Assembly (NCBI RefSeq): GCF_036227605.1
Contig: NZ_CP109487.1
Coordinates: 7,799,001-7,863,000, forward strand
Source: Streptomyces sp. NBC_01439
GTDB taxonomy: Bacteria > Actinomycetota > Actinomycetes > Streptomycetales > Streptomycetaceae
Length of the DNA stretch: 64,000 nucleotides
Reading direction: 5' to 3'
Shown: positions 18,421 through 64,000 of the stretch, in pieces
How the letters are laid out: every line of letters begins with the position of its first letter
How positions within the stretch are numbered: position 1 is the stretch's first letter
Made by a program: the position numbers and the translations under genes
Notes under the pieces: generated by a model
What the model saw: only the letters and a program-made list of their open reading frames with translations
Told to the model about the DNA's origin: nothing
Database searches by the model: none

Positions 18421-18428
18421 ACGCGGGA

Positions 18429-22920: not shown

Positions 22921-22978
22921 GCTGCCCGTTCGGCGTGTCACAGGGGGCGCGCCGAGGACGACACGGGAGGACGTACCG

Positions 22979-25811: not shown

Positions 25812-25830
25812 GGCCCGGCGACGGAGCCGC

Positions 25831-50313: not shown

Positions 50314-50415
50314 GTGGAGGGAGTTTACATTCCTTCCGTGGAGGACCGCACAATTCCGTGGTGACCATGAAATCGCAGGTCACGGGCCACTCGCGCTCCG
50401 CTGAGTGCGTGGGTC

Positions 50416-50436
50416 TGTGAGACGTGTGTGAGACGT
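50416..50436. repeat. Direct repeats at element border
   Basis: TGTGAGACGT occurs at 50416-50425 and 50427-50436, an 11-bp period. Placed between purB and the first element gene, it could be an integrase arm-type site. No tRNA gene was identified here. Confidence 0.4.
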
Positions 50437-50453
50437 CCGTCGTAGCAAAAGAC

Positions 50454-50485
50454 GAAGGCCCCGCCGGGTTTCCGGCGGGGCCTTC
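50454..50485 (+). terminator. Intrinsic terminator at element border
   Basis: GAAGGCCCCGCCGG (50454-50467), loop GTTT, complement at 50472-50485, followed by TTTGC. A 14-bp stem reading as a plus-strand terminator, though no plus-strand gene precedes it; it may have served sequence lost or displaced on integration, and it also shields purB from the element. Confidence 0.65.
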
Positions 50486-50530
50486 TTTGCGTTGGGGTGG
50501 TGCTGCGCTGCGCTCATCCCCACCTCATCG

Positions 50531-51268
50531 TCAGTCGAGGTCGTACTCAGACATGAGCTCGCGGCCAGGCGCGTGATAGTCGACGGCGTACTCGGTGGGT
50601 TCACCGTGCTGGTCCCAGTACCGGTTGGTGACCACGAGGACGTCACGGCCGGCCTGTACGCCGAGGAGCGAGGCGACCTCGTCGGGTACTGCGCGGACGG
50701 ACACGGCGTCGCGCCGTCGGGTGGCCCGGCGTCCGGTCCGCTCCTCGATGAGCCCGAAGGTCATCGAGGGGAGGGGCTCGGCTCGCGTGAACTCGGGCAG
50801 CTCGCGTGCCAAGGTGCCCGCGATCCAGGTGGAGGACACCGCAGAGACTCCCGCGGTGTCGACGTAGCGTCGGCGGCGCACGGCAACCAGGTCGCCCACG
50901 TTCAAGCCGAGGGCATCGGCGACCTCCTGTTCGGCCGGCGCAGTGATGCCGAGCAGGATTTCGACCCGCTCGCCATCGGCCAGGCCGGTTCCACCACCGC
51001 GGAGCATGGACAGCCGGTCCGCTCCCCGTGTCAGCGGGGCGGGCGTCCTCACGAAGCTTCCTCGCCCGGGAACGGTGTCGATCCATCCCTCGTCGCGCAG
51101 CACGCCGAGTACTCGAGCCGCTGTCGCGCTGCTCATGCCAGTGCTCTCCACGAGCTGGCGTGCCGAGGGCGCGGCCCCTCCGGGCTGCAGCTCTCCGCTC
51201 TTGATGCGCTCGATGATCTCGTTGGCCGCCTCCCGGTAGACCGGTAGCCGCTTGCCTTCCCCAGCCAT
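50531..51268 (-). CDS. HutC-type repressor of the element (KorSA-like)
   Basis: 245 residues. Winged HTH at about 8-75 (IIERIKSGELQPGGAAPSAR, SATAARVLGVLRDEGWIDTV) and UTRA domain at about 90-240 (VAVRRRRYVDTAGVSAVSST, FGLIEERTGRRATRRRDAVS). KorSA and KilA-override repressors of pSAM2-like elements are HutC family members, and this one is divergent to the excisionase-like and transfer genes with two identical operator-like sites between. It likely holds transfer and excision silent. Function by context is inference; family is clear. Confidence 0.9.
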   Translation of the reverse strand: MAGEGKRLPVYREAANEIIERIKSGELQPGGAAPSARQLVESTGMSSATAARVLGVLRDEGWIDTVPGRGSFVRTPAPLTRGADRLSMLRGGGTGLADGERVEILLGITAPAEQEVADALGLNVGDLVAVRRRRYVDTAGVSAVSSTWIAGTLARELPEFTRAEPLPSMTFGLIEERTGRRATRRRDAVSVRAVPDEVASLLGVQAGRDVLVVTNRYWDQHGEPTEYAVDYHAPGRELMSEYDLD

Positions 51269-51281
51269 CCAAACTCTCCCT

Positions 51282-51336
51282 TCTTAAGACACCTTACGAA
51301 GCCTCTTGACATGACAGAGCCTCTTAAGACACCTTA
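51282..51336. promoter_or_regulatory. Twin operator sites of the HutC-type repressor
   Basis: The 15-mer TCTTAAGACACCTTA occurs exactly at 51282-51296 and 51322-51336, 40 bp apart, each containing the TAAG/CTTA dyad. A TTGACA -35-like box (51306-51311) lies between them. Confidence 0.7.
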
Positions 51337-51385
51337 GTGCCATGCCCGGCGGAACGACAGGCCGGGACAAGTCAGGCATGCAAAA

Positions 51386-51435
51386 GGCCCCGACGGGGGT
51401 GTCTCGGTGCTACCAACACCGAGCCCGTCAGGGCC
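51386..51435 (+). promoter_or_regulatory. Large leader hairpin before excisionase-like gene
   Basis: Outer stem 51386-51397 with 51424-51435 (12 bp, one mismatch) and inner stem CTCGGTG/CACCGAG (51403-51409 / 51417-51423). It lies in the 5' leader, about 25 bases before the start codon at 51461; it could act as attenuator or site for a plasmid-type RNA control. Confidence 0.6.
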
Positions 51436-51460
51436 GCGCATCGAGCCTTGGAGAAAGCAG

Positions 51461-51694
51461 ATGCAGGAGAACTCTACCCCCGTGCGCCCTGGCGCCGGGG
51501 CTCTCAAGGTCAAGGACGTCGCTGAGTTCCTGGACGTCGACAAGTCCACCGTGTACGTCGCCGTCCGGACGGGCCTCATCGGCTCATACCGCGTCGGCGT
51601 CGGCCGCGGCACCATCCGCATCCCCCGCTCCGCCCTCAAGGCCTACGCCGACGAGCGCGGCATCCCGACGGCAGAGCTGGGGGTGGCGCTGTGA
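51461..51694 (+). CDS. Excisionase-like HTH protein
   Basis: 77 residues from ATG at 51461 behind GGAGAAAG. A single MerR-like winged helix: LKVKDVAEFLDVDKSTVYVA, then RTGLIGSYRVGVGRGTIRIP and SALKAYADERGIP. This is the helix_turn_helix_17 type common for Xis and for plasmid HTH regulators. First gene of the rightward operon; its stop overlaps the next start as GTGA. Could direct excision with an integrase outside the window. Confidence 0.85.
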   Translation: MQENSTPVRPGAGALKVKDVAEFLDVDKSTVYVAVRTGLIGSYRVGVGRGTIRIPRSALKAYADERGIPTAELGVAL

Positions 51695-52272
51695 ACGCGA
51701 TCCCCGCTGACCTGCCCCGCATGTTCCGTCCGGAGCCGAAGCTGTCCGCGGTCCCCACGCAGCCGACGGCCAGTGAGCGTGAGGCCATCGAGCTGGAGGC
51801 CGCGCAGCGGTCCGTCGATGCGCAGTTCCCCCTGGCCGCCGAGTTCGTCGCCGAGCCGCCGGCCCGCACGTGGACGTTCATCGACAGCTCCACCAGCGAG
51901 CTGCAGGAGGTCACCTGCCTGGCCGGTTGCGTCGTCAACCACAGGATCGACCGCGAGACGCCGACCCACGCCGAAGACATCTGGTGCCGCACCAAGAGCG
52001 AGGAAGTCTCCCTGCCGATTGTCAGCGGCGGCCGTGACGTCGAGCAGCTGCGTGTCCTGTCCGCGTTCATCCGCCAGGAACCGTTCTCCCGCAACATGCA
52101 CGAGCGGGTCCCGCACGCCCAGGTCGAGATCGTCGACGACCACTTCATGGAGGGCCTCGACCCGGACGGCCTGGCCTCGGTCATCCTCACCCTCGAGGCC
52201 CAGCTGGCGAAGTTCCGGGACGTCCACGCCCAGCTGACCGCGCTGCGCGAGCAGGGCCGGGTACAGCTGTGA
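51691..52272 (+). CDS. DUF6907-like hypothetical protein
   Basis: 193 residues, GTG start in a GTGA overlap. N-terminal disordered part, then a beta-rich core (PARTWTFIDSSTSELQEVTC, CVVNHRIDRE) with Cys/His, a variable segment, and a C-terminal helical tail (LASVILTLEAQLAKFRDVHA). This layout is frequent in actinobacterial plasmid and AICE genes annotated DUF6907; the call is from memory of the pattern. Function unknown. The gene following it is a shorter relative. Confidence 0.7.
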   Translation: MNAIPADLPRMFRPEPKLSAVPTQPTASEREAIELEAAQRSVDAQFPLAAEFVAEPPARTWTFIDSSTSELQEVTCLAGCVVNHRIDRETPTHAEDIWCRTKSEEVSLPIVSGGRDVEQLRVLSAFIRQEPFSRNMHERVPHAQVEIVDDHFMEGLDPDGLASVILTLEAQLAKFRDVHAQLTALREQGRVQL

Positions 52273-52643
52273 GCGCCCCGCACACCGTGACCGTGCAGAC
52301 CCTCGACCACGGTCCGGTCCTCCTCGTCGAGCCGTCGTGGTGCGTCGTCGAGCATGCGGACGGCAATCACCGCTCGGGCATCCGCCACGACGGCGTCGAG
52401 CACGCCGCCTCGGTGAACGTCCCCGGCTACGGCCGGATCGAGTTCCTGAAGGCGAACCTGCAGCAGTTCCCGTTCGCCGAGCACAGCAGCCGCGACGTGA
52501 CGGTCGTAGTCGAGATCGACGGCGAGCACCACGAGTTCGACTCGGACGGCCTTGGCGATCTGGCTTCCGTCATCGCCACGCACGTGCTGTGCGGACTCCT
52601 CCCGCTGCAGGCCCGCCTGCAGTCGCTGGAGGGGATGTCGTGA
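52269..52643 (+). CDS. DUF6907-like small protein
   Basis: 124 residues, GTGA overlap with the previous gene. It carries SWCVVEHADGNHRSGIRHDG, a Cys/His-bearing strand region, then EHSSRDVTVVVEIDGEHHEF and the helical tail LASVIATHVLCGLLPLQARL, aligning in plan with the C-terminal half of the preceding protein, so the two may be tandem paralogues. Unknown function. Its stop overlaps the next ATG by one base (TGATG). Confidence 0.68.
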   Translation: MSAPHTVTVQTLDHGPVLLVEPSWCVVEHADGNHRSGIRHDGVEHAASVNVPGYGRIEFLKANLQQFPFAEHSSRDVTVVVEIDGEHHEFDSDGLGDLASVIATHVLCGLLPLQARLQSLEGMS

Positions 52644-52711
52644 TGGTCACCGCTTGCGACTGGTGCGGGCAGGGCGACCGCGACCCGATCGACCCGCAGG
52701 ACGGCGAGTGA
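52643..52711 (+). CDS. 22-residue Cys-containing peptide ORF
   Basis: ATG at 52643 overlaps the previous stop by one base; the product is MVTACDWCGQGDRD followed by eight residues. It has a CDWCG knuckle. It is embedded in an unbroken chain of stop/start overlaps and its own stop overlaps the next GTG as GTGA, so it is likely translated, although very small. Alternative: a translational coupling spacer. Confidence 0.5.
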   Translation: MVTACDWCGQGDRDPIDPQDGE

Positions 52712-52902
52712 GCTCGCACTGGCCGATCCGCCGGCCGACGGAGAACGCCGCGCTGCGTTCCCTCGGCCGGTCGACCCGGCCTCTCCCCAGCGTTCCGGCC
52801 CTGATGGCCGCCCTGATCCTCGCGAACCGTGCCTCCGACCGGCACGGCGCCAACCTGGCCGCCCACCGTGTGGTGCGCGTAGCCGAAGGAGTCACCGAAT
52901 GA
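52708..52902 (+). CDS. Small hypothetical protein
   Basis: 64 residues from GTG in the GTGA overlap at 52708. The product starts VSSHWPIRRPTENAALRSLG and ends NRASDRHGANLAAHRVVRVA followed by EGVTE. Basic, no membrane helix. Coupled to the next gene by an ATGA overlap (52899-52902). Probably a minor transfer-operon protein; not recognised. Confidence 0.62.
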   Translation: MSSHWPIRRPTENAALRSLGRSTRPLPSVPALMAALILANRASDRHGANLAAHRVVRVAEGVTE

Positions 52903-53120
52903 CCACCGTTCTCGACGTCATCGCGTTACTCGTCCTCGTCGTCGCCCTGTGTCGGATCGTTCCCGAGCTCCTGGGCCGGCGCCTCGAGCGGATCGTCTGC
53001 CCGTCCTGCCCGTGGTCGATCCAGTACCGCGACGTAAGCCCCCAGTCCGCCACGTTCTTCCGCACGCTCGCCGAACAGCACGAGGCCACCCACACCGACG
53101 AGCAGGAGAACCGGTCGTGA
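52899..53120 (+). CDS. Small single-helix membrane protein
   Basis: 73 residues, ATGA overlap. One N-terminal membrane helix (TTVLDVIALLVLVVALCRIV) and a cytoplasmic part with a CPSCPW knuckle and a charged tail (AEQHEATHTDEQENR). Small membrane proteins of this sort precede SpdB in Streptomyces transfer operons. Its stop overlaps the SpdB-like GTG start (GTGA at 53117-53120), arguing for stoichiometric co-expression. Confidence 0.7.
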   Translation: MTTVLDVIALLVLVVALCRIVPELLGRRLERIVCPSCPWSIQYRDVSPQSATFFRTLAEQHEATHTDEQENRS

Positions 53121-54034
53121 AGTTCCTGACTGAGACCCGGTCCCGTCTGGTCGACCGGACCATCGACGGCACCACGAACCAGGTGCCCGAGCCGTACACC
53201 GTCCGCATCCCGAAGGTCCCCGTCGACAAGGACCGCCTGGCCCTCGTTGGCGTCAGCAGCCTGGTCCTGGTCCTCACGCTCGTCGCGATCGTGTGGTCGA
53301 CGTACAGCATCGGGCAGCTCCTCGGCGGCGGGCCCGGCTACGCGGCCGGCATGGTCTTCGACGTCGCCTGGCTGTCCGTCCTGCTGCTGGAGTGGCTGGC
53401 CCGATTCGACCCCGCCAAGCGGGACTTCCCCCGCAAGGTCGGCTGGGCACTCGCCCTCGTCGCTGCGGGCGCCATCTACCTCGAGGGCCAGCTGGCCGGC
53501 GGCTGGGAGATGGCCCTCGTCGGCGCCGCCGTGTCCATCGTGGCCAAGGTTCTGTGGTGGGCGGTGTTCAGGCACATCGACAAGGACCTGGCTCCGGCCG
53601 ATGCGGCGTGGGTGGCGGCGGAGATGTCGAAGGCGAACGCGAAGCTCGCGATCGCTGGTGTCCGCCGCCAGGCCGCGAAAGCGGAAGTCGCCGCACGGCT
53701 GGAGCTCCTGGCCGCCGAGCATGACCTGAACGAACTCGCAGGGCTCGATCACTCCATGGGCATCCATGACGTGATCACGGCCGAACAGGCCCGCGAACAC
53801 GAGGACGGTTCGGGGCGCCCCGAACCGCAGTTGAACAGGGCGAACACGGTTCGCGAACAGGTCGAGCAGGGCCCGAACATCTCGCACCTGGCCCGCGTCG
53901 AACTGAAGGCTGGAGCGTCCCGCGAGGAGGCCATCGAGGCGATCCTCGCCAAGGTTCCGGACGCCAAGCAGACGTCCGTCGAGGCGACCGTGCGGCGGGA
54001 GCGGAACAAACTCGACCGCGCCGCCTACCGGTAG
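53117..54034 (+). CDS. SpdB-like plasmid spread protein
   Basis: 305 residues from GTG at 53117. Four predicted membrane helices at about 38-155 (LALVGVSSLVLVLTLVAIVW; YAAGMVFDVAWLSVLLLEWL; KVGWALALVAAGAIYLEGQL; MALVGAAVSIVAKVLWWAVF), a charged cytoplasmic coil (KANAKLAIAGVRRQAAKAEV), and a C-terminal tail with an HTH-like end (EEAIEAILAKVPDAKQTSVE). SpdB proteins help move plasmid DNA between mycelial compartments after TraB-mediated transfer, and the helix plan plus position before TraB fit. Confidence 0.82.
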   Translation: MKFLTETRSRLVDRTIDGTTNQVPEPYTVRIPKVPVDKDRLALVGVSSLVLVLTLVAIVWSTYSIGQLLGGGPGYAAGMVFDVAWLSVLLLEWLARFDPAKRDFPRKVGWALALVAAGAIYLEGQLAGGWEMALVGAAVSIVAKVLWWAVFRHIDKDLAPADAAWVAAEMSKANAKLAIAGVRRQAAKAEVAARLELLAAEHDLNELAGLDHSMGIHDVITAEQAREHEDGSGRPEPQLNRANTVREQVEQGPNISHLARVELKAGASREEAIEAILAKVPDAKQTSVEATVRRERNKLDRAAYR

Positions 54035-54069
54035 CCCGCCACCCCCGCCTGACCAACGAGGAGCCATCC

Positions 54070-54216
54070 ATGGCCAAGAAGATCGCGGTCACTGAAGCGG
54101 ACGGGACCGTCATCGAGACCACCGTCAGCAGTGACTCCGTCGCCCGCGAGTACGAGGACCTGCCGTTCCAGGTCGGCCACATCGTCAACGTCACCGTCAC
54201 CGACGACAGCAAGTAG
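54070..54216 (+). CDS. Small hypothetical protein
   Basis: 48 residues from ATG at 54070: MAKKIAVTEADGTVIETTVS, then EYEDLPFQVGHIVNVTVTDD. Acidic, beta-strand rich, with ribosome-binding site GAGGAG upstream. Not recognised. It closes the coupled small-gene run; a palindrome follows in the intergenic space. Confidence 0.65.
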   Translation: MAKKIAVTEADGTVIETTVSSDSVAREYEDLPFQVGHIVNVTVTDDSK

Positions 54217-54238
54217 CCCCGACCCCTTCCGCCCTCGG

Positions 54239-54262
54239 CAACTGTTCAGATCTGAACGGTTG
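54239..54262. promoter_or_regulatory. Palindrome upstream of the pre-traB gene
   Basis: GTTCAGATCTGAAC (54244-54257) is a perfect 14-bp palindrome inside a longer imperfect one (54239-54262). Candidate operator or processing site between the spd genes and the 54314 gene. Confidence 0.5.
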
Positions 54263-54313
54263 CGGGGGGTGGTGGGGGCCGGGATCCACCTGGACCGAGC
54301 TGGAGGAGATCGG

Positions 54314-54826
54314 ATGCCGATCAACGGGCAGCGCACGAGCAGCAACCCGCAGACCAAGGGCGGCAGCAACAAGACCAAGCACGGGCCGTCGTTCAACCTC
54401 GGACCGAACATCAACATCAACTCGACCAAGACCACCACCACCGGCAGCGTCCAGAGTGCCGGAGCTGGCGGTGGCCGTGCCCAGTTCATGCTTCCCGACC
54501 CGTCGTTCGCGTCGGCGGCCGAGCTGCGCGACTACTGCGACACCCTCCGCGCGTTCGGTGTCCACGCCTCCATCGAGGTGATGGTCGCCGCCGAGATCCT
54601 GCAGGCCGCCCTGTCCCAGGCCAGCGGCCTGAAGGACGACAACTTCATCCAGCACAAGCTGAGGGCCCGCAAGGTCGCCCGGAAGCTGAAGAAGTCCGGC
54701 GAAGCTCTCGCCGACGCAGCGTCTCTGGCCGCCGCGACCTACGCCGCGTTCCAGCGGGAGTACGCCGACATCATGTCCGCCCGCACTCCGAACCGGCCGG
54801 CGCAGGCCCGCCCGTTCCAGTACTGA
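54314..54826 (+). CDS. Hypothetical transfer-operon protein
   Basis: 170 residues from ATG at 54314 (GGAGGAG upstream). Thr/Asn/Gly-rich first 50 residues (GPNININSTKTTTTGSVQSA), then a helical domain: FASAAELRDYCDTLRAFGVH, IEVMVAAEILQAALSQASGL, RKVARKLKKSGEALADAASL. The Asn/Thr tail and helical part resemble proteins found just upstream of TraB in Streptomyces plasmids. Ends 14 bases before traB. Function unknown. Confidence 0.7.
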   Translation: MPINGQRTSSNPQTKGGSNKTKHGPSFNLGPNININSTKTTTTGSVQSAGAGGGRAQFMLPDPSFASAAELRDYCDTLRAFGVHASIEVMVAAEILQAALSQASGLKDDNFIQHKLRARKVARKLKKSGEALADAASLAAATYAAFQREYADIMSARTPNRPAQARPFQY

Positions 54827-54840
54827 GAGGAGGCACCCCC

Positions 54841-56835
54841 ATGACCGGCAAGGACATTGAGCAGCGTCACGAGGACCAGCTGAAAGGCAGCTCCGACGGG
54901 GGCGGCATCAAGGCCTACCTGCTGCACCGTGCGAAGCCGTACCTGCCGCCGTGGCTCGGCGCCGGCGCGGTCGGCGTGGCGGGTGGCGCCGCCAACCTGG
55001 TGTGGGAGGGCGACACCGGCATGGGGGTGCTCCTCACCCTCGGCTCCGTCGCCCTGACCGGCTCCACCTGGTGGGCGGCCAGGTCGACGGGCAAGGAACG
55101 GCGCCTGCACTCGGCCATCACCGTCGCGGCCGGCTCGTCCTGGTTCACGTCGGCCGCCCTTTTCGGGCCCAGCTGGGACATGTGGTTCGTCGGCGGGATC
55201 GTCGGCGCCCTGTCATGGAACATCCGCCAGGTGATGCGCCGCGACCCCGACGGCGCCAAGGCGGCATCCTCCGACGGTGGCCTCCTGGAGAAGGTCGGCC
55301 TGGCCAAGGCCAAGTTCGGAGTGGCCAAGGTCGAGCCGAACCGGGTGACCGTACCGCTGGCCCTCGAAGGTGGCGAGCAGACCAACGACGACGCCGCCCG
55401 CGCCCTGGCCCGCATCGCGTCCGCGCTGGATCTGCCGACCACCGCCATCCGCTACAGCCCCGACCCCGACTCCGCGCGCCGCGGCGACCTCGTCATCGTC
55501 CCCATGGACATGCTCTCCGAGATCGTCCTGTGGGAAGGCCCGGCCCTGCCAGGCGGCTCAATCGCCGACCCGCTCGTCATCGGCCGCTACGACAACGGCG
55601 ACCCGCTGATGATGTGGCTGCCCGCGGACGTTCCCGCGGGCCGCAACGGAACCCACCTGCTCATCGCAGGTGGCACCGGATCCGGCAAGGGCGACGGGGC
55701 CCTGAACGTTCTGACGGAAATCCTGTCGAGGAAGGACGTCATTGTCTGGCTGTCCGACCCGAAGGCCTTCCAGGACTTCCGGCCCCTGCTGCCCGGCATC
55801 GACTGGGCGGTCGAGGCGGGCGCCGGCACCGAGGCGATGGTCGAAGCCGTCCAAGCCGTCATCCCCGCCCGGACGCGGTGGCTCGGCCTCCACAAGTACC
55901 GGGCCTGGGAGCCCGTGTGCGCCGGCACTCAGGACGACCCCCAACACTCCTGCAAGTCGGACGGACCGTGCGGCTGCGAGGGCATGCCCTACCTGGTCAC
56001 CTGGTTCGAAGAGGCCGCGAACACGCTGCGCGCACTCGGCGACGACGCGTTCACCGGCATCGCCCAGGAAGCGCGTTCCGCTGGCGTCTCCCTCGTTGTC
56101 TCGCTCCAGCGACCCAGCCACGACCAGATGTCGACCAGCACCCGGGCATCACTGCCCTCGGTCCTGTGCTTCGGCGTCGACAAGCGGGACGAAGGCTTCG
56201 CCCTGCCCGACGAAGTCCTCGACGCAGGCGCCCACCCTGGCGTCTGGGGCAACCGACGCCCCGGCTACTGCTACCTCGTCACGCCCGGCGTGGACGAGGC
56301 CCTGTACGCGTCGCCCGCCCGGACCCGCCGCTTCACCTGGGACTCCGTGTCCCTGATGGAGACGCTGGCCGCGTGGGCCGGCCGCAACGGCGCCAAGCCC
56401 GACCCGATCACCGCGGGCGCCGCCGCATCCATTGTGGGGAAGGCGTACACGGAACGGGCACAGCACAAGGAGGAGAACCCCGACGACGAGGAGCAGACCG
56501 TGAGCCGCCTGGACGACGAGGACCTCGACATCGACCCGAACGAGGAGCTGCCTCAGCCGCAGCCGGGCGAGGAGAACGTCGTCTTCGACCAGGGTGACGG
56601 GGCCGAGCTCAGCCGCGGGGAAGCCCGCGCAGCCCTGCAGGAGATCGTTGCCGAGTTCGAGGACGCTGGAACGATGGTGATCGGCGTCAAGGAGGTCATG
56701 GACCACGCCGAACGGTTCGGCCGGAAGCGCGGATGGGTCTCCGGAGAGCTTCAGCAGATGCTCGTCGAAGGCCGCCTGGACACCACGTCGAAGCCCGGCC
56801 GGTACCGGATCGTGCCCGCCATGGCCGACGCCTGA
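54841..56835 (+). CDS. traB: TraB/TraSA-type FtsK-like DNA translocase
   Basis: 664 residues behind GAGGAGG. Membrane segments lie at about 36-52, 60-80 and 95-125. The motor domain has Walker A IAGGTGSGKGDGALNVLTEI (about 275-290), Walker B VIVWLSDPKAFQDFRPLL, a Cys-rich insertion (TQDDPQHSCKSDGPCGCEGM) and an ASP-box region (SLVVSLQRPSHDQMSTSTRA). A winged-helix C-terminus (EVMDHAERFGRKRGWVSGEL) would bind the DNA recognition repeats. TraB alone moves double-stranded plasmid DNA between mycelia in Streptomyces. The CTGACACC repeats immediately downstream fit clt. Confidence 0.93.
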   Translation: MTGKDIEQRHEDQLKGSSDGGGIKAYLLHRAKPYLPPWLGAGAVGVAGGAANLVWEGDTGMGVLLTLGSVALTGSTWWAARSTGKERRLHSAITVAAGSSWFTSAALFGPSWDMWFVGGIVGALSWNIRQVMRRDPDGAKAASSDGGLLEKVGLAKAKFGVAKVEPNRVTVPLALEGGEQTNDDAARALARIASALDLPTTAIRYSPDPDSARRGDLVIVPMDMLSEIVLWEGPALPGGSIADPLVIGRYDNGDPLMMWLPADVPAGRNGTHLLIAGGTGSGKGDGALNVLTEILSRKDVIVWLSDPKAFQDFRPLLPGIDWAVEAGAGTEAMVEAVQAVIPARTRWLGLHKYRAWEPVCAGTQDDPQHSCKSDGPCGCEGMPYLVTWFEEAANTLRALGDDAFTGIAQEARSAGVSLVVSLQRPSHDQMSTSTRASLPSVLCFGVDKRDEGFALPDEVLDAGAHPGVWGNRRPGYCYLVTPGVDEALYASPARTRRFTWDSVSLMETLAAWAGRNGAKPDPITAGAAASIVGKAYTERAQHKEENPDDEEQTVSRLDDEDLDIDPNEELPQPQPGEENVVFDQGDGAELSRGEARAALQEIVAEFEDAGTMVIGVKEVMDHAERFGRKRGWVSGELQQMLVEGRLDTTSKPGRYRIVPAMADA

Positions 56836-56940
56836 CAGCTCTGACACCTTCTGACGCGTCAGACCGGCCTGACACCCAAACCCTTAGGCAGGAGCGGGTG
56901 TCAGGCGGCTCTGACACCCGGCCTGACACCCATCTGACAG
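56832..56940. repeat. CTGACACC repeat cluster, candidate clt locus
   Basis: CTGACACCC occurs at 56869, 56911 and 56923 and inverted at 56896; CTGACACCT at 56841; CTGACAG at 56832 and 56934; CTGACGCGTCAG palindrome at 56851. Lying against the traB stop, it is placed like the clt/TRS sites that TraB binds. The rest of the gap to 57208 has a GACTC/GAGTC dyad and no gene. Confidence 0.7.
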
Positions 56941-57208
56941 CACATCGAGGCGGCCCAGACAGCCCCGGCCGCAACGTGCGTTCGATCATCGACTCTTTAC
57001 GTAGCCGATCACCCGTAGTACGCTGCCCGGCAATCGACAGAGAATGTCGAGCTGCTAGCCCCAGGCGGCAGGCGAGTTCACCCCGGTGGAGAACCCCTGT
57101 CGAGTAAGGCCAGCGGTGCCACCCAGGAGGTTCCCAAGGCGCCGGGCAGTGCGTGACTCAAGACGAGTCGCCCACATGCTCGGCGTTCGTGTTTTCCAGG
57201 GACCTTCC

Positions 57209-57430
57209 ATGGCTCGGTACTTCTCCGGCCGCCGCCTCCGCGAAGCACGCAGGCTGGCAGGCATCTCCCCAGAACAACTCGCCATCAGCGTGGGCCGATC
57301 GGCATACAGCATCCACGAGTACGAGCTCGGGCGCGTCACCCCACCCATCACCGTCCTGGCCTCGATCGCCGACACCCTCGGCCGGCCGGTTGACGACCTC
57401 CTCACCGAAGAGGAAGCCCATGCCGCCTAA
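57209..57430 (+). CDS. XRE-family small regulator
   Basis: 73 residues from ATG at 57209 (weak AGGGA before). A single Cro/C1 domain: GRRLREARRLAGISPEQLAI, GRSAYSIHEYELGRVTPPIT, ASIADTLGRPVDDLLTEEEA. Alternative ATG at 57176. Its end overlaps the next gene by 11 bases. Likely controls the replication genes that follow. Confidence 0.82.
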   Translation: MARYFSGRRLREARRLAGISPEQLAISVGRSAYSIHEYELGRVTPPITVLASIADTLGRPVDDLLTEEEAHAA

Positions 57431-57644
57431 GCGCCCCACCCTCGCCGACGTCCGCAGCTGGCCCGCCACGATCAGCGTGGTGGAGGCCGCCGACGCCCTC
57501 GGCTGTAGCAAGACCTTCCTGTACGAGCGCATCAAGCGAGGCGACTCGCCCGTCAAGACCCTTGCGGTCGGAGAGCGCCGCTACGTCGTCATCACCGCGG
57601 ACCTCATTCGTCTGCTGTCCGGGGAGGAGCGAGCGATCGCATGA
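57420..57644 (+). CDS. Small helix-turn-helix protein
   Basis: 74 residues from ATG at 57420. HTH: ISVVEAADALGCSKTFLYER, then GDSPVKTLAVGERRYVVITA and a short tail. Excisionase/AlpA-like winged helix type. Overlaps the XRE gene before it (11 bases) and the next start (ATGA). Together the two HTH genes open the replication operon; either could be the activator of primase or excision. No experimental inference. Confidence 0.8.
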   Translation: MPPKRPTLADVRSWPATISVVEAADALGCSKTFLYERIKRGDSPVKTLAVGERRYVVITADLIRLLSGEERAIA

Positions 57645-58117
57645 CCCATGACGCAAAGAAGGGCCTGCGGGTAACAGGCCCTTCCCTGGAAGTCTCCGCG
57701 GCTGGCGGGTCGACTGCCGCCACGGTATCGCAGGACGGGCCGCACATCACCCCCGACGAGTTCGTCGCCCTCTGGGCCGAAGCCCGCACCGCTTACTACG
57801 CCGACGAATTCCCGCCCTACGCCTCGCGCGCATGGCGGGCCCTCCGGCCGGACGACCCGCGGCGCCTGGCCGCCGCCCTCGACGCCGCCGAGAAGTGGCG
57901 GAAGTACGGCGACGAGGAGGCCCTGCTCCAGTGGTTCCGCGACGCGAGCAGCCGCGGATACGTCTCGGGGGGCCGCACAGCCGTCGAACTCGCCGAGCTC
58001 CGCAGGCCGAAGCCGCCGCACCAGCTAAAGGCCACCCCCGGATGGCCGCCCATCCAGGTACCCGGCGCCCCCGGCACCTACCTGACCTACATCGACGAGA
58101 GGAGGGAGGCCGCGTGA
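57641..58117 (+). CDS. Hypothetical protein of replication operon
   Basis: 158 residues, ATGA overlap. N-terminal 35 residues disordered, then a helical domain: TPDEFVALWAEARTAYYADE, RAWRALRPDDPRRLAAALDA, EKWRKYGDEEALLQWFRDAS, ending YLTYIDERREAA. The RAWRAL...RLAALDAAEKW pattern recalls DUF2742-type phage proteins, a weak resemblance. Coupled to the primase gene by a GTGA overlap, suggesting an accessory replication function. Confidence 0.68.
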   Translation: MTHDAKKGLRVTGPSLEVSAAGGSTAATVSQDGPHITPDEFVALWAEARTAYYADEFPPYASRAWRALRPDDPRRLAAALDAAEKWRKYGDEEALLQWFRDASSRGYVSGGRTAVELAELRRPKPPHQLKATPGWPPIQVPGAPGTYLTYIDERREAA

Positions 58118-59607
58118 CCGAGGCAGCACTGCGGCCGGCGCCGGTCGACGAATACGCCCCCGAAGAAGAGCCCCTGGAGGATCCCGCCGACGAGTCTTTC
58201 GTGGTCCTGGCGCGAGACCTTCGGTTCCCGCGTCGCACCTACGACGACATCGGCAACGCCGAACGGCTCGTCGACCACTACGGCGCTGAGGTCCGTTTCA
58301 CCGTCGACGCTGAACAGTGGGTCACCTACGAAGACGGCCGCTGGAGCTTCAAGGGCGGCGCCACGCGGGTCTGGCAGCGCGTCATCCGCACCATCGACGC
58401 ACTGCCGACCACCGAGGCCACGACATACAGCAACCTCGCCGGGGTCGGACCCAAAGGTGAGGCGCTGCCGTCACCTCGCGAGAAGTTCCTGCAGTGGGCC
58501 AGCTCGCAGCGCATGCGGGCCAAGCTCGCCGCCATGCGCGAGATCGCCCAAGGGCACCCAGCGCTGCACTGCTCCATGAACGACTTCGACCGGCACGAGA
58601 TGCTCCTCAACGTCGGCAACGGTGTGGTCGACCTGCGCACGGGGAAGCTGCTGGACCACGAGCCCGGCCTGTTTCTCATGCAGCAGTCACCCATCCGGTT
58701 TGACCCGGACGCTAAGGCCCCCATGTGGGACGAGTTCTTGGCCTCGGTCATGCCCGACGAGGAACGGCGCGCCTACCTGGCCCGCGTCGTCGGCTACACC
58801 CTCACAGGCTCCACCGAAGAGCAGGTGATGTTCATCCACCACGGAGACGGCCAGAACGGCAAGGGCGTCTTCATGCGGGTCATCACCGAGATCTTTGGCG
58901 ACTACGCCCAGTCCGTCCCGCGTTCCACGCTCATGGCCAAGCAGAACGAAGGGATCCCCAATGACGTCGCTCGGATGATGGGCAAGCGCCTGCTGTCGAC
59001 GACCGAAACTTCGGCCGGCAAGAGGCTCGACGACGAGTTGGTGAAGCAGCTGACCGGCGAGGACACCGTCAGCGCCCGCTTCCTGAACAAGGAGTTCTTC
59101 GACTTTCGGCCCGTCGGAAAGATCCACCTGGTCACCAACTATCTGCCCACCGTCGGCGGCGGCCACGGCATCGCGCGTCGACTCCAAGACATCGGCTGGG
59201 ACGTCATCGTCCCGCCCGAAAAGCGCATCAAGAAGTACGACGAGAAGATCCTGGCCGCCGAATCTTCAGGCGTTCTCAACTGGGCCATCCAGGGCTGTCT
59301 CGACTGGCAGAAGTCAGGCTTGGCCGTACCGACCGCCGTCCAGGAGAAGACCAAGGAGCACCTGGCCAAGTCCGATCCGCTTCTGATGTGGCGCGATGAC
59401 TGGACCAAACCGGCCGACCCGACCGCATACACCGAGACCGGTGTTCTCTTCGCCAGCTACAAGCGCTGGTGCCAGGACGGCTCCATCCGCGAGATGAGCA
59501 TCCGAGCCTTCGGCGACGCCCTGCAAGAGAAGGGCTACGCCCGAGGTAACCACCCGGTCAACCGAAGGTCGGTGATCTTTGGCCTCCAACTCGCCTCGTC
59601 GTTCTAG
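58114..59607 (+). CDS. P4/D5-type primase-helicase (replication initiator)
   Basis: 497 residues from GTG at 58114. D5-like N-terminal domain (ERLVDHYGAEVRFTVDAEQW, then MLLNVGNGVVDLRTGKLL) and SF3-like helicase with Walker A HHGDGQNGKGVFMRVITEIF (about 242-260), the DVARMMGKRLLSTTETSAGK region (Walker B/sensor), KQLTGEDTVSARFLNKEFFD and arginine-finger-like GIARRLQDIGWDVIVPPEKR. Typical replication protein of integrative elements and temperate actinophages. The CGAAGG iterons just downstream are the probable origin. Confidence 0.92.
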   Translation: MTEAALRPAPVDEYAPEEEPLEDPADESFVVLARDLRFPRRTYDDIGNAERLVDHYGAEVRFTVDAEQWVTYEDGRWSFKGGATRVWQRVIRTIDALPTTEATTYSNLAGVGPKGEALPSPREKFLQWASSQRMRAKLAAMREIAQGHPALHCSMNDFDRHEMLLNVGNGVVDLRTGKLLDHEPGLFLMQQSPIRFDPDAKAPMWDEFLASVMPDEERRAYLARVVGYTLTGSTEEQVMFIHHGDGQNGKGVFMRVITEIFGDYAQSVPRSTLMAKQNEGIPNDVARMMGKRLLSTTETSAGKRLDDELVKQLTGEDTVSARFLNKEFFDFRPVGKIHLVTNYLPTVGGGHGIARRLQDIGWDVIVPPEKRIKKYDEKILAAESSGVLNWAIQGCLDWQKSGLAVPTAVQEKTKEHLAKSDPLLMWRDDWTKPADPTAYTETGVLFASYKRWCQDGSIREMSIRAFGDALQEKGYARGNHPVNRRSVIFGLQLASSF

Positions 59608-59612
59608 CCCGC

Positions 59613-59865
59613 CCCGAAGGGATCCGAAGGCTTCTCCGAAGGGAAACCGAAGGAATCCACGAAGGGTCTGACCTGCACTTCGAAGGGATCGAAGGGAAGT
59701 ACATGAGGCTCCGCGCATATGAGGAAAGCGGCCTCTCTCGTATGGCCTATAGGGGCCCGACCCCACTCGAATCCCTTCGATCCCTTCGAAGCCTTCGAAA
59801 CCCCAGGTCAGACACCCGAAGGGATAGCCGAACCATCCCTTCGAAGCCTTCGAGAAGCCTTCGAA
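59613..59865. repeat. CGAAGG iteron field, candidate replication origin
   Basis: Seven CGAAGG copies at 59615, 59625, 59637, 59648, 59660, 59681 and 59690 (mostly 10-12 bp apart), then six inverted CCTTCG copies at 59774, 59783, 59792, 59838, 59847 and 59858, with one more direct copy at 59817. A less GC-rich 75-bp centre lies between the arms. No gene is supported from 59608 to 59902. Confidence 0.78.
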
Positions 59866-59902
59866 CCGACCCAGACACCCACTCACCCCGTTGGAAGCCC
59901 TC

Positions 59903-60061
59903 ATGAACGTGAACGATCTAGTGCAGGAGCGTATAGACGCAGCCCGGCGAAAGACGGCAGCAAAGAAGCGCGCACGCCAGGAACTCGCCGAAGCCCGGCT
60001 CAGCGGCCTGGAGGCCCGGCACACCGCCAAGCTGCGCCGATGGAACAAGGACCAGCGGTGA
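59903..60061 (+). CDS. Small basic coiled-coil protein
   Basis: 52 residues from ATG at 59903: MNVNDLVQERIDAARRKTAA then AKKRARQELAEARLSGLEAR and KLRRWNKDQR. Strongly basic, one long helix. Located right beside the candidate origin, it might be a nucleoid- or origin-binding factor; that is a guess. Coupled to the next gene by GTGA. Confidence 0.65.
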   Translation: MNVNDLVQERIDAARRKTAAKKRARQELAEARLSGLEARHTAKLRRWNKDQR

Positions 60062-60258
60062 CCCGGCCGCGCAGGCGAGTGCCGCTCCTGTGCGAGGCCT
60101 GCGGTACAGCGGTCCGACGCGGCCGATACCGGCTCTGCATGCTCGGCTGCGGCGCCCGCCTCCACACCGACAAGCGCAGCCCCTGCGTCGACGCACACAT
60201 CCCCGTCTGCGACGCCTACCAGCCCCACCCCCAAGCCACCGAAGGGACCCTCTCATGA
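60058..60258 (+). CDS. Cys-rich zinc-finger-like protein
   Basis: 66 residues from GTG at 60058. Cys/His pattern: LCEACGTAVRRGRYRLCMLG, CGARLHTDKRSPCVDAHIPV, CDAY. Likely binds one or two zinc ions. Basic and small; possible DNA or RNA binder. The stop overlaps the next ATG (ATGA). Unrecognised beyond the metal motif. Confidence 0.68.
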   Translation: MTRPRRRVPLLCEACGTAVRRGRYRLCMLGCGARLHTDKRSPCVDAHIPVCDAYQPHPQATEGTLS

Positions 60259-60833
60259 ACCGCGACCAGCTCCTCGACAACTACCACCGCAAGCTCGAGC
60301 GCATCGAGAACAGCCGGACGTACAGCACCAACGCCAAGCGGGTCATGGCCGCCAAGGCCTACAAGGAGACCCAGGGCGCCCTCGAGCAGATCCGGCTGAG
60401 CGAGATCAAGGCGATCGAGGACCGCCGCGAGCAGCTCCACCGGAAGATGTTCGGACGCGAGAACGCAGCCGACGCGCAGACCGTCATCGCCCGCCGCGAC
60501 GCCAACGACCGCGCCGGCCAGATCGACAACCCGCGCATCGCCGCCGAGCAGATGCAGACCGCCCTCCGACAGGGCGACCGCACCATGGCCCAGGCCATCG
60601 CCGAGCGGGCCGCCGACTGGGGATGGTCCGACGTCCTCGACAGCTACGCCCAGGCGAACCCCTCGTTCCGTAGCCACGTCCAGGAGTACAACGAGCTGCC
60701 CGACACCGACGCTGTCAGCAACTGGGGCATCCAGCACTCGTTCCTGCATGTGGTGTCCGCCCCAGGCATCCTGCATGACGCGAACTCCGGCACGATCGAG
60801 GCGCTCGCCAGCCAGGACCTGGAGGCGGCGTGA
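60255..60833 (+). CDS. Hypothetical phage/element protein
   Basis: 192 residues, ATGA overlap. Helical: DNYHRKLERIENSRTYSTNA, AKAYKETQGALEQIRLSEIK, ADAQTVIARRDANDRAGQID, MAQAIAERAADWGWSDVLDS. Charged, soluble, scaffold-like look but no domain recognised. Followed immediately by another long helical protein (TGATG overlap). Such gene pairs often precede terminase genes in actinophages, so a virion-assembly role is possible but unproven. Confidence 0.7.
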   Translation: MNRDQLLDNYHRKLERIENSRTYSTNAKRVMAAKAYKETQGALEQIRLSEIKAIEDRREQLHRKMFGRENAADAQTVIARRDANDRAGQIDNPRIAAEQMQTALRQGDRTMAQAIAERAADWGWSDVLDSYAQANPSFRSHVQEYNELPDTDAVSNWGIQHSFLHVVSAPGILHDANSGTIEALASQDLEAA

Positions 60834-61660
60834 TGGCCAGAGCAACCGTCAGCGAAGCCGAGCGGGCCGTCCTCGCCGCCGAACGCCGCAAGCTGTCTGT
60901 CCCCGAGGACGTGTACGAAGCCCGCCGCCTGCGGACCGCCGTGTTCGACACCGCCCGAACCCCCGATCCTGAGCGGCCGGCCCTGCCCGAAACCGCGGCC
61001 GAGGCGGCAGCTGTCATCCAGCAGCACGCCGAAGCGCTCCGGCTCGCCGACGTCACCCGCCGTGCGGCCGACCTGTTCGCCGAGGAAGCCGACCAGCGGT
61101 TCGTCGACGAGGCCATGGCCGCCGTGCCGAAATGGGTGGCAGGTCTCGACAAGGAGTTCGGCACCCTCGTGGCAGTCGTGGCCAAGGCCGCGGCCAAGCT
61201 GCCCCAGGACATCAGCATGCTCGACCCCGGGCGCATCGACTGGAACAACCCAGTCCACTCGGCCGCGTACACCAAGGCCGAGGGAGCAGCTGTCCAGCTG
61301 GAGCAGCTGGTGAGCGACAGGTCCGACATCGCTGCTGTGGCAGGCGGTGACGGAGGCCGGGACAACGCCCTGTTCGCGGTGGCCCACTTCCCTCAGCCCA
61401 CCGTGCAGGCCGTCATGAACGGTGACTGGCAGGACATGGCTCCAGTCCTGTACGCCTGGCGGGACCTGCGTGCCCAGCCCGTCGCACGCTGGGTGTACCT
61501 CGTGCGCCAGGACCAGCTCACGCTCAGCCTCGCAACGCCCGGTGAAGTGAGGGAACGCAGCGTCCAGGTGGAGCTGTGGCGGGACGCAGGCCACGCCCGC
61601 CGGTCGGCCCTCTCCCCTCGGACCGCCGAGGCCTACGTCACGCAGGTGCTCAGCGCGTGA
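60833..61660 (+). CDS. Hypothetical phage/element protein
   Basis: 275 residues from ATG at 60833. Ala/Glu-rich helical N-terminal 100 residues (PETAAEAAAVIQQHAEALRL), a mixed middle (PKWVAGLDKEFGTLVAVVAK, NNPVHSAAYTKAEGAAVQLE) and a C-terminal domain (WRDLRAQPVARWVYLVRQDQ). Not recognised. Soluble. Last well-supported gene before the terminase pair; coupled by a GTGA overlap to a doubtful downstream frame. Confidence 0.7.
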   Translation: MARATVSEAERAVLAAERRKLSVPEDVYEARRLRTAVFDTARTPDPERPALPETAAEAAAVIQQHAEALRLADVTRRAADLFAEEADQRFVDEAMAAVPKWVAGLDKEFGTLVAVVAKAAAKLPQDISMLDPGRIDWNNPVHSAAYTKAEGAAVQLEQLVSDRSDIAAVAGGDGGRDNALFAVAHFPQPTVQAVMNGDWQDMAPVLYAWRDLRAQPVARWVYLVRQDQLTLSLATPGEVRERSVQVELWRDAGHARRSALSPRTAEAYVTQVLSA

Positions 61661-61983
61661 CCCACGAACTCGGCGTCAACGGCATCGACATCGTGATCTC
61701 TCGACGAGCGTCGAACCGATGGTGCGGAGCCGGCTACCTCTCAGAGCCGCACCAGCGCCGACGCCCCGGCCGGAGCCTCACCGCTCCGGCCGGGGCAACC
61801 AAGGCCACCTGGGAGGGACACCCCCGGGCGGCCTGCCCCCATCGGAGCCGTGTTCATGCTGTCCCGCTGCCCAGGTCTGGGGCTTTCGACATGGCCTTGA
61901 CCTGCGGCTTTGTCGAGAGGCCTAGACCACTCATCCGGGGCCCGCGCCGGTCGTCTACATCACCGCAGGTCAGAGAGCTGTAG
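61657..61983 (+). CDS. Doubtful ORF before terminase genes
   Basis: A 108-codon frame from GTG at 61657 that overlaps the previous stop (GTGA). It begins VTHELGVNGIDIVISRRASN, but the rest is Arg/Pro-rich and runs through a strong terminator hairpin (61763-61796), which argues against coding beyond the first 35 codons. May be leader sequence or a truncated gene. Confidence 0.3.
   Translation: MTHELGVNGIDIVISRRASNRWCGAGYLSEPHQRRRPGRSLTAPAGATKATWEGHPRAACPHRSRVHAVPLPRSGAFDMALTCGFVERPRPLIRGPRRSSTSPQVREL
61763..61796. terminator. Perfect 14-bp hairpin
   Basis: GCCCCGGCCGGAGC (61763-61776), loop CTCACC, complement at 61783-61796. Separates the replication/orphan operon from the packaging genes. 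Confidence 0.72.
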
Positions 61984-61993
61984 CCGTGACACC

Positions 61994-62013
61994 GAGGCGC
62001 CGGGGGGCGCCTC
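61994..62013. terminator. Hairpin just before terS
   Basis: GAGGCGCC (61994-62001), GGGG loop, GGCGCCTC (62006-62013). Terminator or 5'-leader structure upstream of the AGGAGGA site. Confidence 0.5.
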
Positions 62014-62037
62014 GACACCCGAGCTAGGAGGAACGCC

Positions 62038-62520
62038 ATGGCTGGTCGTGGACCCGCCCCGAAGGACCCCCGGCGCCGCGCCGGCCACCGCAAGGACGGT
62101 CACCAGCAGACGGTGCTCCGCTTCGAGCAGGCCGAGCCGCCCGAACTGCCGCCGCTGCGCGCCCGCCAGGGCGACGAGATGGTCGAGGTGCCGTGGCCCA
62201 CGGCCACGTTGGAGTGGTGGGAGATGTGGAAGGCCAGCCCGCAGGCCGAGCACTTCACCTCGACCGACTGGTCGTTCCTGCGGGACACGGCCCTGGTGCA
62301 CGCCCGGCACTGGAACGGTGAGTCGACCGCCGGTGCCGAGCTCCGCCTGAGGGTCGCCAAGTTCGGCGCCACCCCCGAGGACCGCGCCCGACTGCGGATG
62401 CAGTTCGCCCAGGCGGACGAGGCCGACTTGAAGCGTCCGGCCGGCGCCTCGGCCGAGGACCAATTCGGCGACCTGAAGGTGCTGCCAGGGGGTGGGGCGG
62501 ATGCCGTGGCGGGGGCCTAG
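62038..62520 (+). CDS. Phage terminase small subunit
   Basis: 160 residues from ATG at 62038, five bases after AGGAGGA. Starts with the basic GRGPAPKDPRRRAGHRKDGH tail common to actinophage TerS. Core helices: WPTATLEWWEMWKASPQAEH, STDWSFLRDTALVHARHWNG and ARLRMQFAQADEADLKRP, then a flexible tail. Binds pac/cos DNA and hands it to the large subunit. The start of the large-subunit gene overlaps its last 20 bases. Identification rests on start motif and adjacency to TerL. Confidence 0.85.
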   Translation: MAGRGPAPKDPRRRAGHRKDGHQQTVLRFEQAEPPELPPLRARQGDEMVEVPWPTATLEWWEMWKASPQAEHFTSTDWSFLRDTALVHARHWNGESTAGAELRLRVAKFGATPEDRARLRMQFAQADEADLKRPAGASAEDQFGDLKVLPGGGADAVAGA

Positions 62521-64000
62521 ATACGAGGGCGAACTGCCCACCCTGGGATACCAGGTCATCAACTGGATGCACACCTACCTGGCCGCGCCGGACCGTTCCG
62601 AGTATGTGCCGTTCCGGCTAACGCGGGAGCAGGCGCAGTTCGTGCTGAACCTGTACGCCATCGACCCGAGGACGGGGGAGCGCCGCTACCGCAGGGCGGT
62701 CCTGTCGCGGCCGAAGGGCTGGGGCAAGTCGCCGCTGCTGGCCGCCCTCACGTGCGCCGAGGCCCTGGCGGACGTCGTCCCGGATGGCTGGGACGCCCAC
62801 GGGGAGCCGGTGGGCCGCCCGTGGGCCACGCTGCGTACACCGTGGCTGCAGCTAGCCGCTGTGTCCGAGGATCAGACGAAGAATGCTTGGGCGCCGCTGC
62901 TGGAGATGCTGCGGGAGGGCCCGGCGCTGGACGCCTACCCGGGTATCGAGCCGCTGGACACGTTCGTGAACCTGCCGCAGGGCCGGATCGAGTTCGTGAC
63001 GAGCGCGGCCACGTCCCGGGAGGGCAACCGGCCCGTGTGGTGCGTCCTGGACCAGACGGAGGAGTGGCGCCAGTCAAACGGCGGCGTGAAGCTGGCCGCC
63101 ACGTTGCGCCGCAACCTGGGCAAGACGGCCGGCACGTCGGTGGAGTCTCCGAACGCCTACATTCCGGGTGGTGGGAGCGTCGCGGAGTCCTCGGCCGAGT
63201 ACTTCAAGCGGATCCGTGAGGGCCGCGCCCGCGACGAGGGCCTGCTGTACGACCACCGTGAGGCGCCCGCGGAAACCGACATGGCCGATCGGGACTCGCT
63301 GATGGCTGGTCTGCGGCACGCCTACGGTGATTCGGCGGCGCAGGCCGGCGGCTGGGTGAACCTGGACCGGATCGCGGCCGAGGTGTGGGACCCGGACACA
63401 GACCCGCAGGACGCCCGCCGCTTCTACCTCGGCCAGATCACGCACGCTTCCGACTCCTGGATCACGCAGCCCGAATGGGCCGCGGTCGCGGACGTCGAGA
63501 AGACCGTCGGCGAGCGGGAGGCGGTGGTCCTCGGCTTCGACGGGTCTCGTCGCCGCTCCCGGGGCGTCACCGACGCTACGGCTCTCGTCGGCTGCCGCGT
63601 CTCGGACGGACACCTGTTTCTGCTGGGCTGCTGGGAGCAGCCTGACGGGCCCGAGGGCGAGGGATGGCAGGTGCCTGTCGTCGAGGTCCTGGCGACCATC
63701 GAGGACGCGTTCAAGCGGTACCGGGTGGTGGGCATGTACGCCGACCCGGCCAAGTGGGAGTCCCACGTGGCGACCTGGGAGGCGAAGCATGGTCGCCGGC
63801 TGAAGGTGAAGGCCACTGCGCAGCACCCGATCGAATGGTGGATGACGGGCGGCCGGGCGCATCTCATCGTCCGCGCACTGGAGAAGTTCCGCTCGTCGGT
63901 CGTCGAGAACGAGCTGACGCACGACGGGTCCAGCGTGCTCACCCGGCATGTGCTGAATTCGAGGCGCCGCCAGTCCCGCGTCGGCGCGCAGATAGCCAAG
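62501..64000 (+). CDS. Phage terminase large subunit (partial at right edge)
   Basis: 500 codons visible from ATG at 62501; the 3' end is outside. Motor domain: atypical P-loop AVLSRPKGWGKSPLLAALTC, then TPWLQLAAVSEDQTKNAWAP and Walker B VWCVLDQTEEWRQSNGGVKL. Nuclease domain: VVLGFDGSRRRSRGVTDATA and RYRVVGMYADPAKWESHVAT, giving acidic metal ligands. Packages phage DNA into proheads using ATP. Its presence with TraB and SpdB in one block shows the element is at least partly phage-derived. Confidence 0.93.
   Translation, partial: MPWRGPRYEGELPTLGYQVINWMHTYLAAPDRSEYVPFRLTREQAQFVLNLYAIDPRTGERRYRRAVLSRPKGWGKSPLLAALTCAEALADVVPDGWDAHGEPVGRPWATLRTPWLQLAAVSEDQTKNAWAPLLEMLREGPALDAYPGIEPLDTFVNLPQGRIEFVTSAATSREGNRPVWCVLDQTEEWRQSNGGVKLAATLRRNLGKTAGTSVESPNAYIPGGGSVAESSAEYFKRIREGRARDEGLLYDHREAPAETDMADRDSLMAGLRHAYGDSAAQAGGWVNLDRIAAEVWDPDTDPQDARRFYLGQITHASDSWITQPEWAAVADVEKTVGEREAVVLGFDGSRRRSRGVTDATALVGCRVSDGHLFLLGCWEQPDGPEGEGWQVPVVEVLATIEDAFKRYRVVGMYADPAKWESHVATWEAKHGRRLKVKATAQHPIEWWMTGGRAHLIVRALEKFRSSVVENELTHDGSSVLTRHVLNSRRRQSRVGAQIAK

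Follow-up and report, generated by a model that had tools for sequence, protein, structure and literature searches.

The stretch of DNA analyzed here (the window; 64,000 nucleotides of Streptomyces sp. NBC_01439, G000:C1:7799001-7863000 of a 9.58-Mb genome) carries toward its right end a single integrated element of ~15.5 kb, which combines intact genes for conjugal transfer and intact terminase genes with a cos-like site, encodes no virion protein among the genes called, and is of mosaic origin. We consider it probable that an arm of the actinomycete integrative and conjugative element (AICE) type on the left has recombined with an arm of the phage-satellite type on the right, and that the product has two routes of transfer; the anatomy can be read directly from the DNA, and the transfer is what its genes suggest. 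Given that transfer and packaging modules occur here without virion genes, the element may spread both by hyphal mating and in the particles of another phage. The DNA was examined onward to position 7,920,000 (121 kb in total), genes were called by codon-position composition, and coordinates past 64 kb are extended window coordinates (table 1).

The right end of the element lies past the window, near 65.85 kb. A relative (G012) lacks the whole block and shows an empty site, GTGGATGGATTCTAC, which unites both flanks, and its copy of the purB-like protein is 97% identical; in all 12 same-genus relatives compared, the left-flank similarity ends at or before 50328. The empty site and these limits place the ~15.5-kb element immediately ahead of the start codon of the purB-like gene. 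This lyase gene, which encodes an adenylosuccinate-lyase C-terminal domain, is the left neighbor of the repressor. The right neighbor is a GDSL lipase gene on the opposite strand, which adjoins the purB-like gene in relatives without the element. A search for exact 11-mer repeats gave nothing convincing as attachment (att) sites, because the two 15-bp cores differ at two positions, and it was the empty-site comparison that resolved the ends. Both cores are unique in the 121 kb read, and within 50.0-66.3 kb no further copy with up to three mismatches is found besides the two ends. As in AICEs, the integrase lies beside one att site, here attR. No portal, capsid, or tail gene was found among the genes called between 50.5 and 65.9 kb, including the interval between TerL and the integrase. 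An earlier note on the window, made from its letters alone, had drawn the block as 50340-64000 on one rightward strand: it is indeed one element, but it continues through the HNH-like gene and the integrase, and the repressor lies on the minus strand and points left.

Table 1. Features of the integrated element and the evidence for each (positions in window coordinates, extended past 64 kb).
Feature	Position	Strand	Evidence and remarks
attL core GTGGAGGGAGTTTAC	50314-50328	+	Abuts start codon of purB-like lyase gene (minus strand)
GntR/UTRA repressor	50531-51268	-	PF00392 and PF07702
Excisionase-like helix-turn-helix protein	51461-51694	+	PF12728, TIGR01764
Two DUF6907 proteins	51691-52272, 52269-52643	+	PF21848
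Predicted membrane protein at the Spd place	53117-54034	+	305 amino acids; longer frame starts at 52949; hydropathy
TraA	54314-54826	+	NF041213, 178 bits (cut-off 80)
TraB, FtsK-like DNA translocase	54841-56835	+	NF041214 (plasmid_TraB), 886 bits (cut-off 800)
clt-like repeats CTGACACC	56841, 56869, 56911, 56923 (span 56841-56941)	+	3' of TraB
Cro/C1-type helix-turn-helix protein	57209-57430	+	PF13560
Replication-associated protein	57641-58117	+	158 amino acids; relatives in sister elements
P4/D5-family primase-helicase	58114-59607	+	497 amino acids; PF08706, TIGR01613
Iteron-like direct repeats	59771-59865	.	Repeat search; few imperfect copies
Orphan protein 1	60255-60833	+	192 amino acids; all-helical model, predicted local distance difference test (pLDDT) 91; 40 relatives
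Orphan protein 2	60830-61660	+	276 amino acids; all-helical model, pLDDT 95; marker of the element family
cos-like site	61841-61888	+	Best matrix hit 61869-61888 (GCCCAGGTCTGGGGCTTTCG); ~170 bp upstream of TerS
TerS, terminase small subunit	62038-62520	+	PF25673 Terminase_7, 109 bits
TerL, terminase large subunit	62492-64150 (past window end)	+	phrog_9, 260 bits
HNH-like gene	64175-64468 (extended)		3' of TerL, before integrase; 33% to BearBQ HNH gene
Tyrosine integrase	64570-65760 (extended)		Only integrase of the element, at its right end; PF00589, 52 bits
attR core GTGGAGGGATTCTAC	65838-65852 (extended)		Partner of attL

The conjugation module in the left arm is plasmid-like. TraB matches 51 of 72,556 plasmid records (60-64% identity for the best) and has no match among 50,697 phage records; its ratio of nonsynonymous to synonymous substitutions (dN/dS, NG86 method) is 0.29-0.38 against its three closest relatives. 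The FtsK-like Tra protein expected of an AICE is recognized by NF041214, PF01580 reaching 18.8 bits, under its cut-off of 24. Four copies of CTGACACC occur in 56836-57086, compared with three in 105 kb of flanking chromosome. The loci L162, L163, and L164, whose TraBs are 73-77% identical to that of the window, likewise have TGACACC repeats 3' of TraB, and none related to them were found behind the more distant TraBs of L165 and pSN22. Judged by what is established for Streptomyces plasmids, these repeats are putative clt sites read by TraB. The predicted membrane protein at the Spd place has no match in Pfam or NCBIfam; relatives lie upstream of TraA-TraB in L162 and L164, and those on plasmids are annotated as hypothetical. 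No relaxase was found among the called genes of the element.

Most gene assignments of the earlier note agree with the family matches: its HutC-type repressor is the GntR/UTRA protein, its excisionase-like gene matches PF12728 and TIGR01764, its coupled small-gene run contains the two DUF6907 genes, its TraB/FtsK translocase exceeds the curated cut-off of NF041214, its clt-like repeats are the four CTGACACC copies just 3' of TraB, its primase-helicase is the P4/D5-family helicase (with iteron-like repeats that are few and imperfect), and its terminase pair is a Terminase_7 TerS with a phrog_9 TerL. Its SpdB has to be given up, the protein at that place being a predicted membrane protein with no match to an SpdB family.

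The packaging genes of the right arm point to phages of the SF1/VWB kind: 1,987 phage records match TerL, and the nearest are SF1 and SF3 (both 62.6%) and VWB (58.5%). It should be noted that in the 43-kb SF1 record (L115, NC_028807.1) the terminase, portal, capsid, and tail genes are present twice (at 126-8740 and 17716-26865), and the record may be a composite assembly. The HNH-like protein has no Pfam match; its similarity to the annotated HNH protein of BearBQ extends over the full length, and that to Cornie's is partial. In the genus survey TerL matches were found in 85 of 392 genomes. We fetched 40 TerL loci (20 by place from this survey and 20 from named genomes, with some overlap), and a portal match follows 3' of TerL in 38 of them. 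One exception, L098, is a contig that ends just past TerL; the other, L095 (Streptomyces africanus), has a TerS 92% and a TerL 86% identical to those of the window, followed by a PF00589 integrase. The same holds for a contig from IMG/VR (L151; 15,644 of 17,727 bp examined) as regards the portal: TerS is 91% and TerL 92% identical, and there is no match to the portal queries. Comparisons among the window element, L151, and L095 give dN/dS of 0.09-0.17 for both TerS and TerL, by which measure both are under purifying selection; the terminase does not look like decaying baggage.

Upstream of TerS lies a sequence with a motif that related phages have near the ends of their records. In the records of BearBQ, Cornie, and ReT1v, whose ends we assume to be physical ends, the GTCTGG of GTACGGGTCTGG begins 21, 21, and 35 bases from the left end, respectively, before TerS, and the final gene of the BearBQ and Cornie records is the annotated HNH nuclease; JacoRen57 has a weaker form of the motif, and SF3 was uninformative. 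The final matrix of 20 bp, built from 11 phage and prophage sites, scores best in the window element at 61869 (19.0; runner-up 9.8) and reaches 20.7 in L095, 15.8 in L151, and 26.4 in L148, the 105 kb of flanking chromosome containing two hits of at least 15 and one of at least 16. In a held-out check on 33 TerL loci, L095 among them, the top hit was on the same strand and no more than 1.7 kb upstream of the terminase genes, counted from TerS or, failing a TerS match, from TerL, in 29, the failures being L092, L102, L111, and L112. Four held-out loci duplicate training loci (L096 is L075; L101, L104, and L110 are L076, L085, and L090), and leaving them out gives 25 of 29. By blastn the site of the window aligns with L151 over 46 bp and with the prophage L078 over 45 bp, at 78% identity in both cases. 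The site of L148 (L148:8203-8222; G010:C2) lies beyond the 3' end of a TerS of a different family and on the other strand.

The two arms have different nearest relatives. The left arm (~50561-57644, with the GntR repressor, excisionase, TraA, TraB, and the clt-like repeats) matches the AICE-like contig L162 in DNA blocks of 74-93%, with protein identities of 68% for the repressor, 77% for the excisionase, 70% for the membrane protein, 75% for TraA, and 76% for TraB. The right arm (~57742-64446, with the replication genes, the orphan genes, TerS, TerL, and the HNH-like gene) matches L151, which has no TraB, in blocks of 67-85%. This makes the element a recombinant whose junction falls near 57.7 kb (57644-57742).

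The right arm belongs to a group of elements marked by the two orphan proteins. Orphan 2 has 64 relatives at E<=0.001 among 8,000 candidates scored, is present in 7 of the 392 genus genomes (the source genome included), and matches none of the 50,697 phage records and no plasmid record; the single scan of viral contigs with it yielded one locus, L151. It has no sequence match in the PDB and no fold match in the viral library, and the PHROG matches of orphan 2 and its relatives are weak and scattered. The window copy of orphan 1 has no Pfam match, other members having weak, scattered ones; neither model has a PDB fold match at E<=0.001, and neither protein has a match in PADLOC. The orphan pair is present in each of the eight elements read (the window and L145-L151) and is followed in seven by a TerS, of the Terminase_7 type in the window and L151 and of phrog_1496 in L145, L146, L147, L148, and L150. 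No TerS was called in L149, which does have an HNH-like match and a tape-measure-like gene. The SF1/VWB portal queries, which more distant portals could escape, match none of the seven sister loci. A PF00589 integrase was found in L145, L146, L147, L148, and L150, and a TraB or FtsK-type translocase in four of the eight elements (the window, L146, L149, and L150), those of the last three not being NCBIfam TraB.

Several features of these sisters deserve separate mention. The tape-measure-like gene of L149 (L149:3946-8202; G291:C12) encodes 1,418 amino acids, matches phrog_4197 and others, and lies beside the orphan pair; a tail gene is odd in this satellite-like locus, where an FtsK-like gene is present and neither TerS nor portal was called. 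In L095, L147, and L150 the integrase adjoins the same conserved gene, presumably glutamine synthetase-like as judged by its start in L095 and the others alike, and this shared integration site is unlike that of the window. DUF6907 relatives (one or both, by tblastn) occur in six of the seven loci L145-L151, not in L148, and also in L162 and L164. Upstream of the GntR repressor, a pair of direct repeats (TCTTAAGACACCTTA; 51282 and 51322) looks like putative operators, and both copies are kept, with one change, at the related repressor of L162.

To place the combination of transfer and packaging genes in the genus, TraB was scored in the 392 genomes (at most three candidates per genome). At least 79 TraB places of 100 bits or more were found, in 69 genomes, and seven of these 79 are accompanied on their strand by a TerL or portal no more than 15 kb away: those of the window, G048, G050, G342, G042, G227, and G373. 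A portal match is present in all but the window, and these six therefore look like prophages (L163, L165, L079, L092, L093, and L166), with TraB 5-9 kb upstream of the terminase or portal on the same strand. The order in L165 (G227:C5) is GntR-like gene, excisionase-like gene, TraA, TraB, TerS, TerL, portal, and PF05065 capsid, and its TraB, too, matches no phage record. In L163 (G042:C26) and L165 TraA-TraB stand upstream of TerS, TerL, and portal as if whole prophages bore a plasmid conjugation module. In the AICE-like locus L164 (L164:6141-8410; G320:C119), TraA-TraB are joined by a PF00589 integrase, a Terminase_4 TerS, and a PF05065 HK97-type capsid, with no TerL or portal recognized nearby. 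The earlier note had named, as a result that would refute it, homologous elements in which TraB and terminase blocks never occur together; in other genomes TraB and terminase genes do co-occur.

Satellites of the phage-inducible chromosomal island (PICI) kind are elements of ~15 kb with integrase, excisionase, primase-helicase, a terminase gene, and cos, and without virion genes. The window element resembles them in being integrated, in its size (~15 kb, within 10-20 kb), and in having an integrase, an excisionase-like gene, a primase-helicase for replication, terminase genes, and a cos-like site, with no virion genes called; the cos-like sequence common to related phages and prophages would be a packaging signal shared with a helper. 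It differs from them in encoding TerL besides TerS, in its full conjugation module, and in a gene order other than that of PICIs. TraB-bearing Streptomyces prophages differ in having a portal, some also a protease and capsid, none of which the window element has.

By the criteria set out for AICEs such as pSAM2 and SLP1 (PMC3218068), the element is alike in being integrated, with a tyrosine integrase, an excisionase-like gene, an FtsK-like Tra protein, and no relaxase called; it is unlike them in adding TerS, TerL, the HNH-like gene, and the cos-like site. Replication modules in that 2011 survey are of the RepSA, RepAM, or Prim-Pol kind, with PF08706/PF03288 reported for one AICE (PMC3218068); the replication module of the window element has no match to RepSA, RepAM, or Prim-Pol domains, its gene being a D5/P4-family helicase. 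The word "terminase" does not occur in the main text of two AICE surveys (PMC3218068, PMC9513070). The Streptomyces plasmid-phage pZL12, described as having replication, transfer, and a lytic cycle (PMC3583192, PMC4487206), is a precedent for conjugation plus phage in one element; it shares with the window element the joining of conjugal transfer and phage genes in one Streptomyces element and differs in being, by description, a plasmid with phage-particle genes, whereas the window element is integrated, 15.5 kb long, and without virion genes. Plasmid pWTY27 is described with tra, spd, and int genes and a phage-capsid-like gene (PMC3583192). The satellites of the Mulch/Flayer system are likewise satellites in Streptomyces, but as reported their gene content is opposite to that of the window element, with encapsidation machinery encoded and key replication genes missing (PMC10690885). 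That small actinobacterial prophage-like elements may be satellites has been raised as a general suggestion (PMC10023795). In the open-licence literature, searched by title and opening of the abstract, we found no description of an AICE-satellite hybrid, in which a conjugative element would carry terminase genes and act as a satellite.

If the recombinant does have two routes of transfer, we infer that it would work as follows. On lifting of the GntR repressor, integrase and excisionase would excise the element, which would then replicate. TraB would pump double-stranded DNA into neighboring hyphae from the clt repeats. With an active cos-type helper phage of related head (the SF1/VWB-like terminase group), which the satellite-like packaging part would need, the element's own TerS-TerL would cut at the cos-like site and load element DNA into helper heads.

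Several points weigh against this proposal. Excision, transfer, and packaging are predictions from the gene content, and no candidate helper turned up in the host, whose genome lacks a further phrog_9 TerL, a PF04860 portal, and a PF03354 match. For neither orphan protein did the searches point to a function, and orphan 2 is less constrained, with dN/dS of 0.45 against L151. A first matrix of 32 bp, with 2 of 11 training sites misplaced, ranked the cos-like site of the window second, with a score (11.8) lower than the average best score of 40 shuffles (12.7), and the sites were corrected and the matrix shortened to 20 bp only after this outcome was known. The distance from site to TerS is greater than in L095 and L151, and a strong site is absent from five of the six sister loci with TerS only or without TerS (L145, L146, L147, L149, and L150; best 20-bp matrix scores 8.0-12.4).

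Among the alternatives, an AICE that moves by conjugation only, having acquired its terminase block by recombination for another purpose (e.g., interference at phage cos sites) or none, survives best, and we regard it as unlikely. It would fit the complete transfer module, the exchange of cargo described for AICEs (PMC9513070), and the host without a helper prophage; it sits poorly with the low dN/dS of TerS and TerL, with the cos-like site beside them, and with TerS occupying the same slot in five further sisters with the orphan pair. That the element is a reduced prophage, a TraB-bearing phage whose genes from portal to lysis, between TerL and the integrase, have disappeared, seems improbable to us. 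Same-genus prophages with TraB upstream of terminase and portal do exist, but the TraBs of those with the same TerL type (L079) are only 36-39% identical, the orphan pair is unmatched in the phage records (orphan 2 being the query), and the right arm matches L151 DNA. L095 and L151 both have TerS-TerL without a detected portal, which together with that match means that the arrangement predates the window element. The alternative of the earlier note, a tandem of two unrelated elements that meet near 60-62 kb, has next to nothing left in its favor besides the different nearest relatives of the halves: reading past 64 kb gave the one integrase (at 64.57 kb, not at 59.6-62.0 kb) and the second att site, no further att-core copy with up to three mismatches lies between the one pair of cores, G012 lacks the whole block, and the relatives change at ~57.65-57.74 kb, which is a recombination junction inside one element.

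The preferred reading of that note, a phage-plasmid hybrid with two routes, stands in part. Conjugation and packaging genes do lie in one element and dual transfer is plausible, but the phage-plasmid part is not supported. A full phage-plasmid was rejected because no virion gene was called and PF04860 has no match in the genome, and an extrachromosomal replicon on the integration at the purB-like gene and the empty site, a transient circle being possible.

Beyond the single element, there is in our judgment an even chance that conjugative phage satellites form a family in Streptomyces, its members being integrative elements in which two new helical proteins are followed by an exchangeable packaging slot (TerS alone, or TerS-TerL plus a cos-like site) and some of which also have a mycelial conjugation module. 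Were this so, the same DNA could travel by contact inside a colony and from one colony to another in phage particles. Full prophages that contain conjugation genes, the opposite arrangement, occur repeatedly in the genus. AICEs and phage satellites are handled as distinct classes that differ in helpers, detection rules, and ecology, and detection tools for a single class could miss such an element or cut it in half. An element with intact parts of both classes would link colony-scale conjugation to long-range spread in phage particles, and the one described here offers a concrete system for testing whether one element uses two transfer routes.

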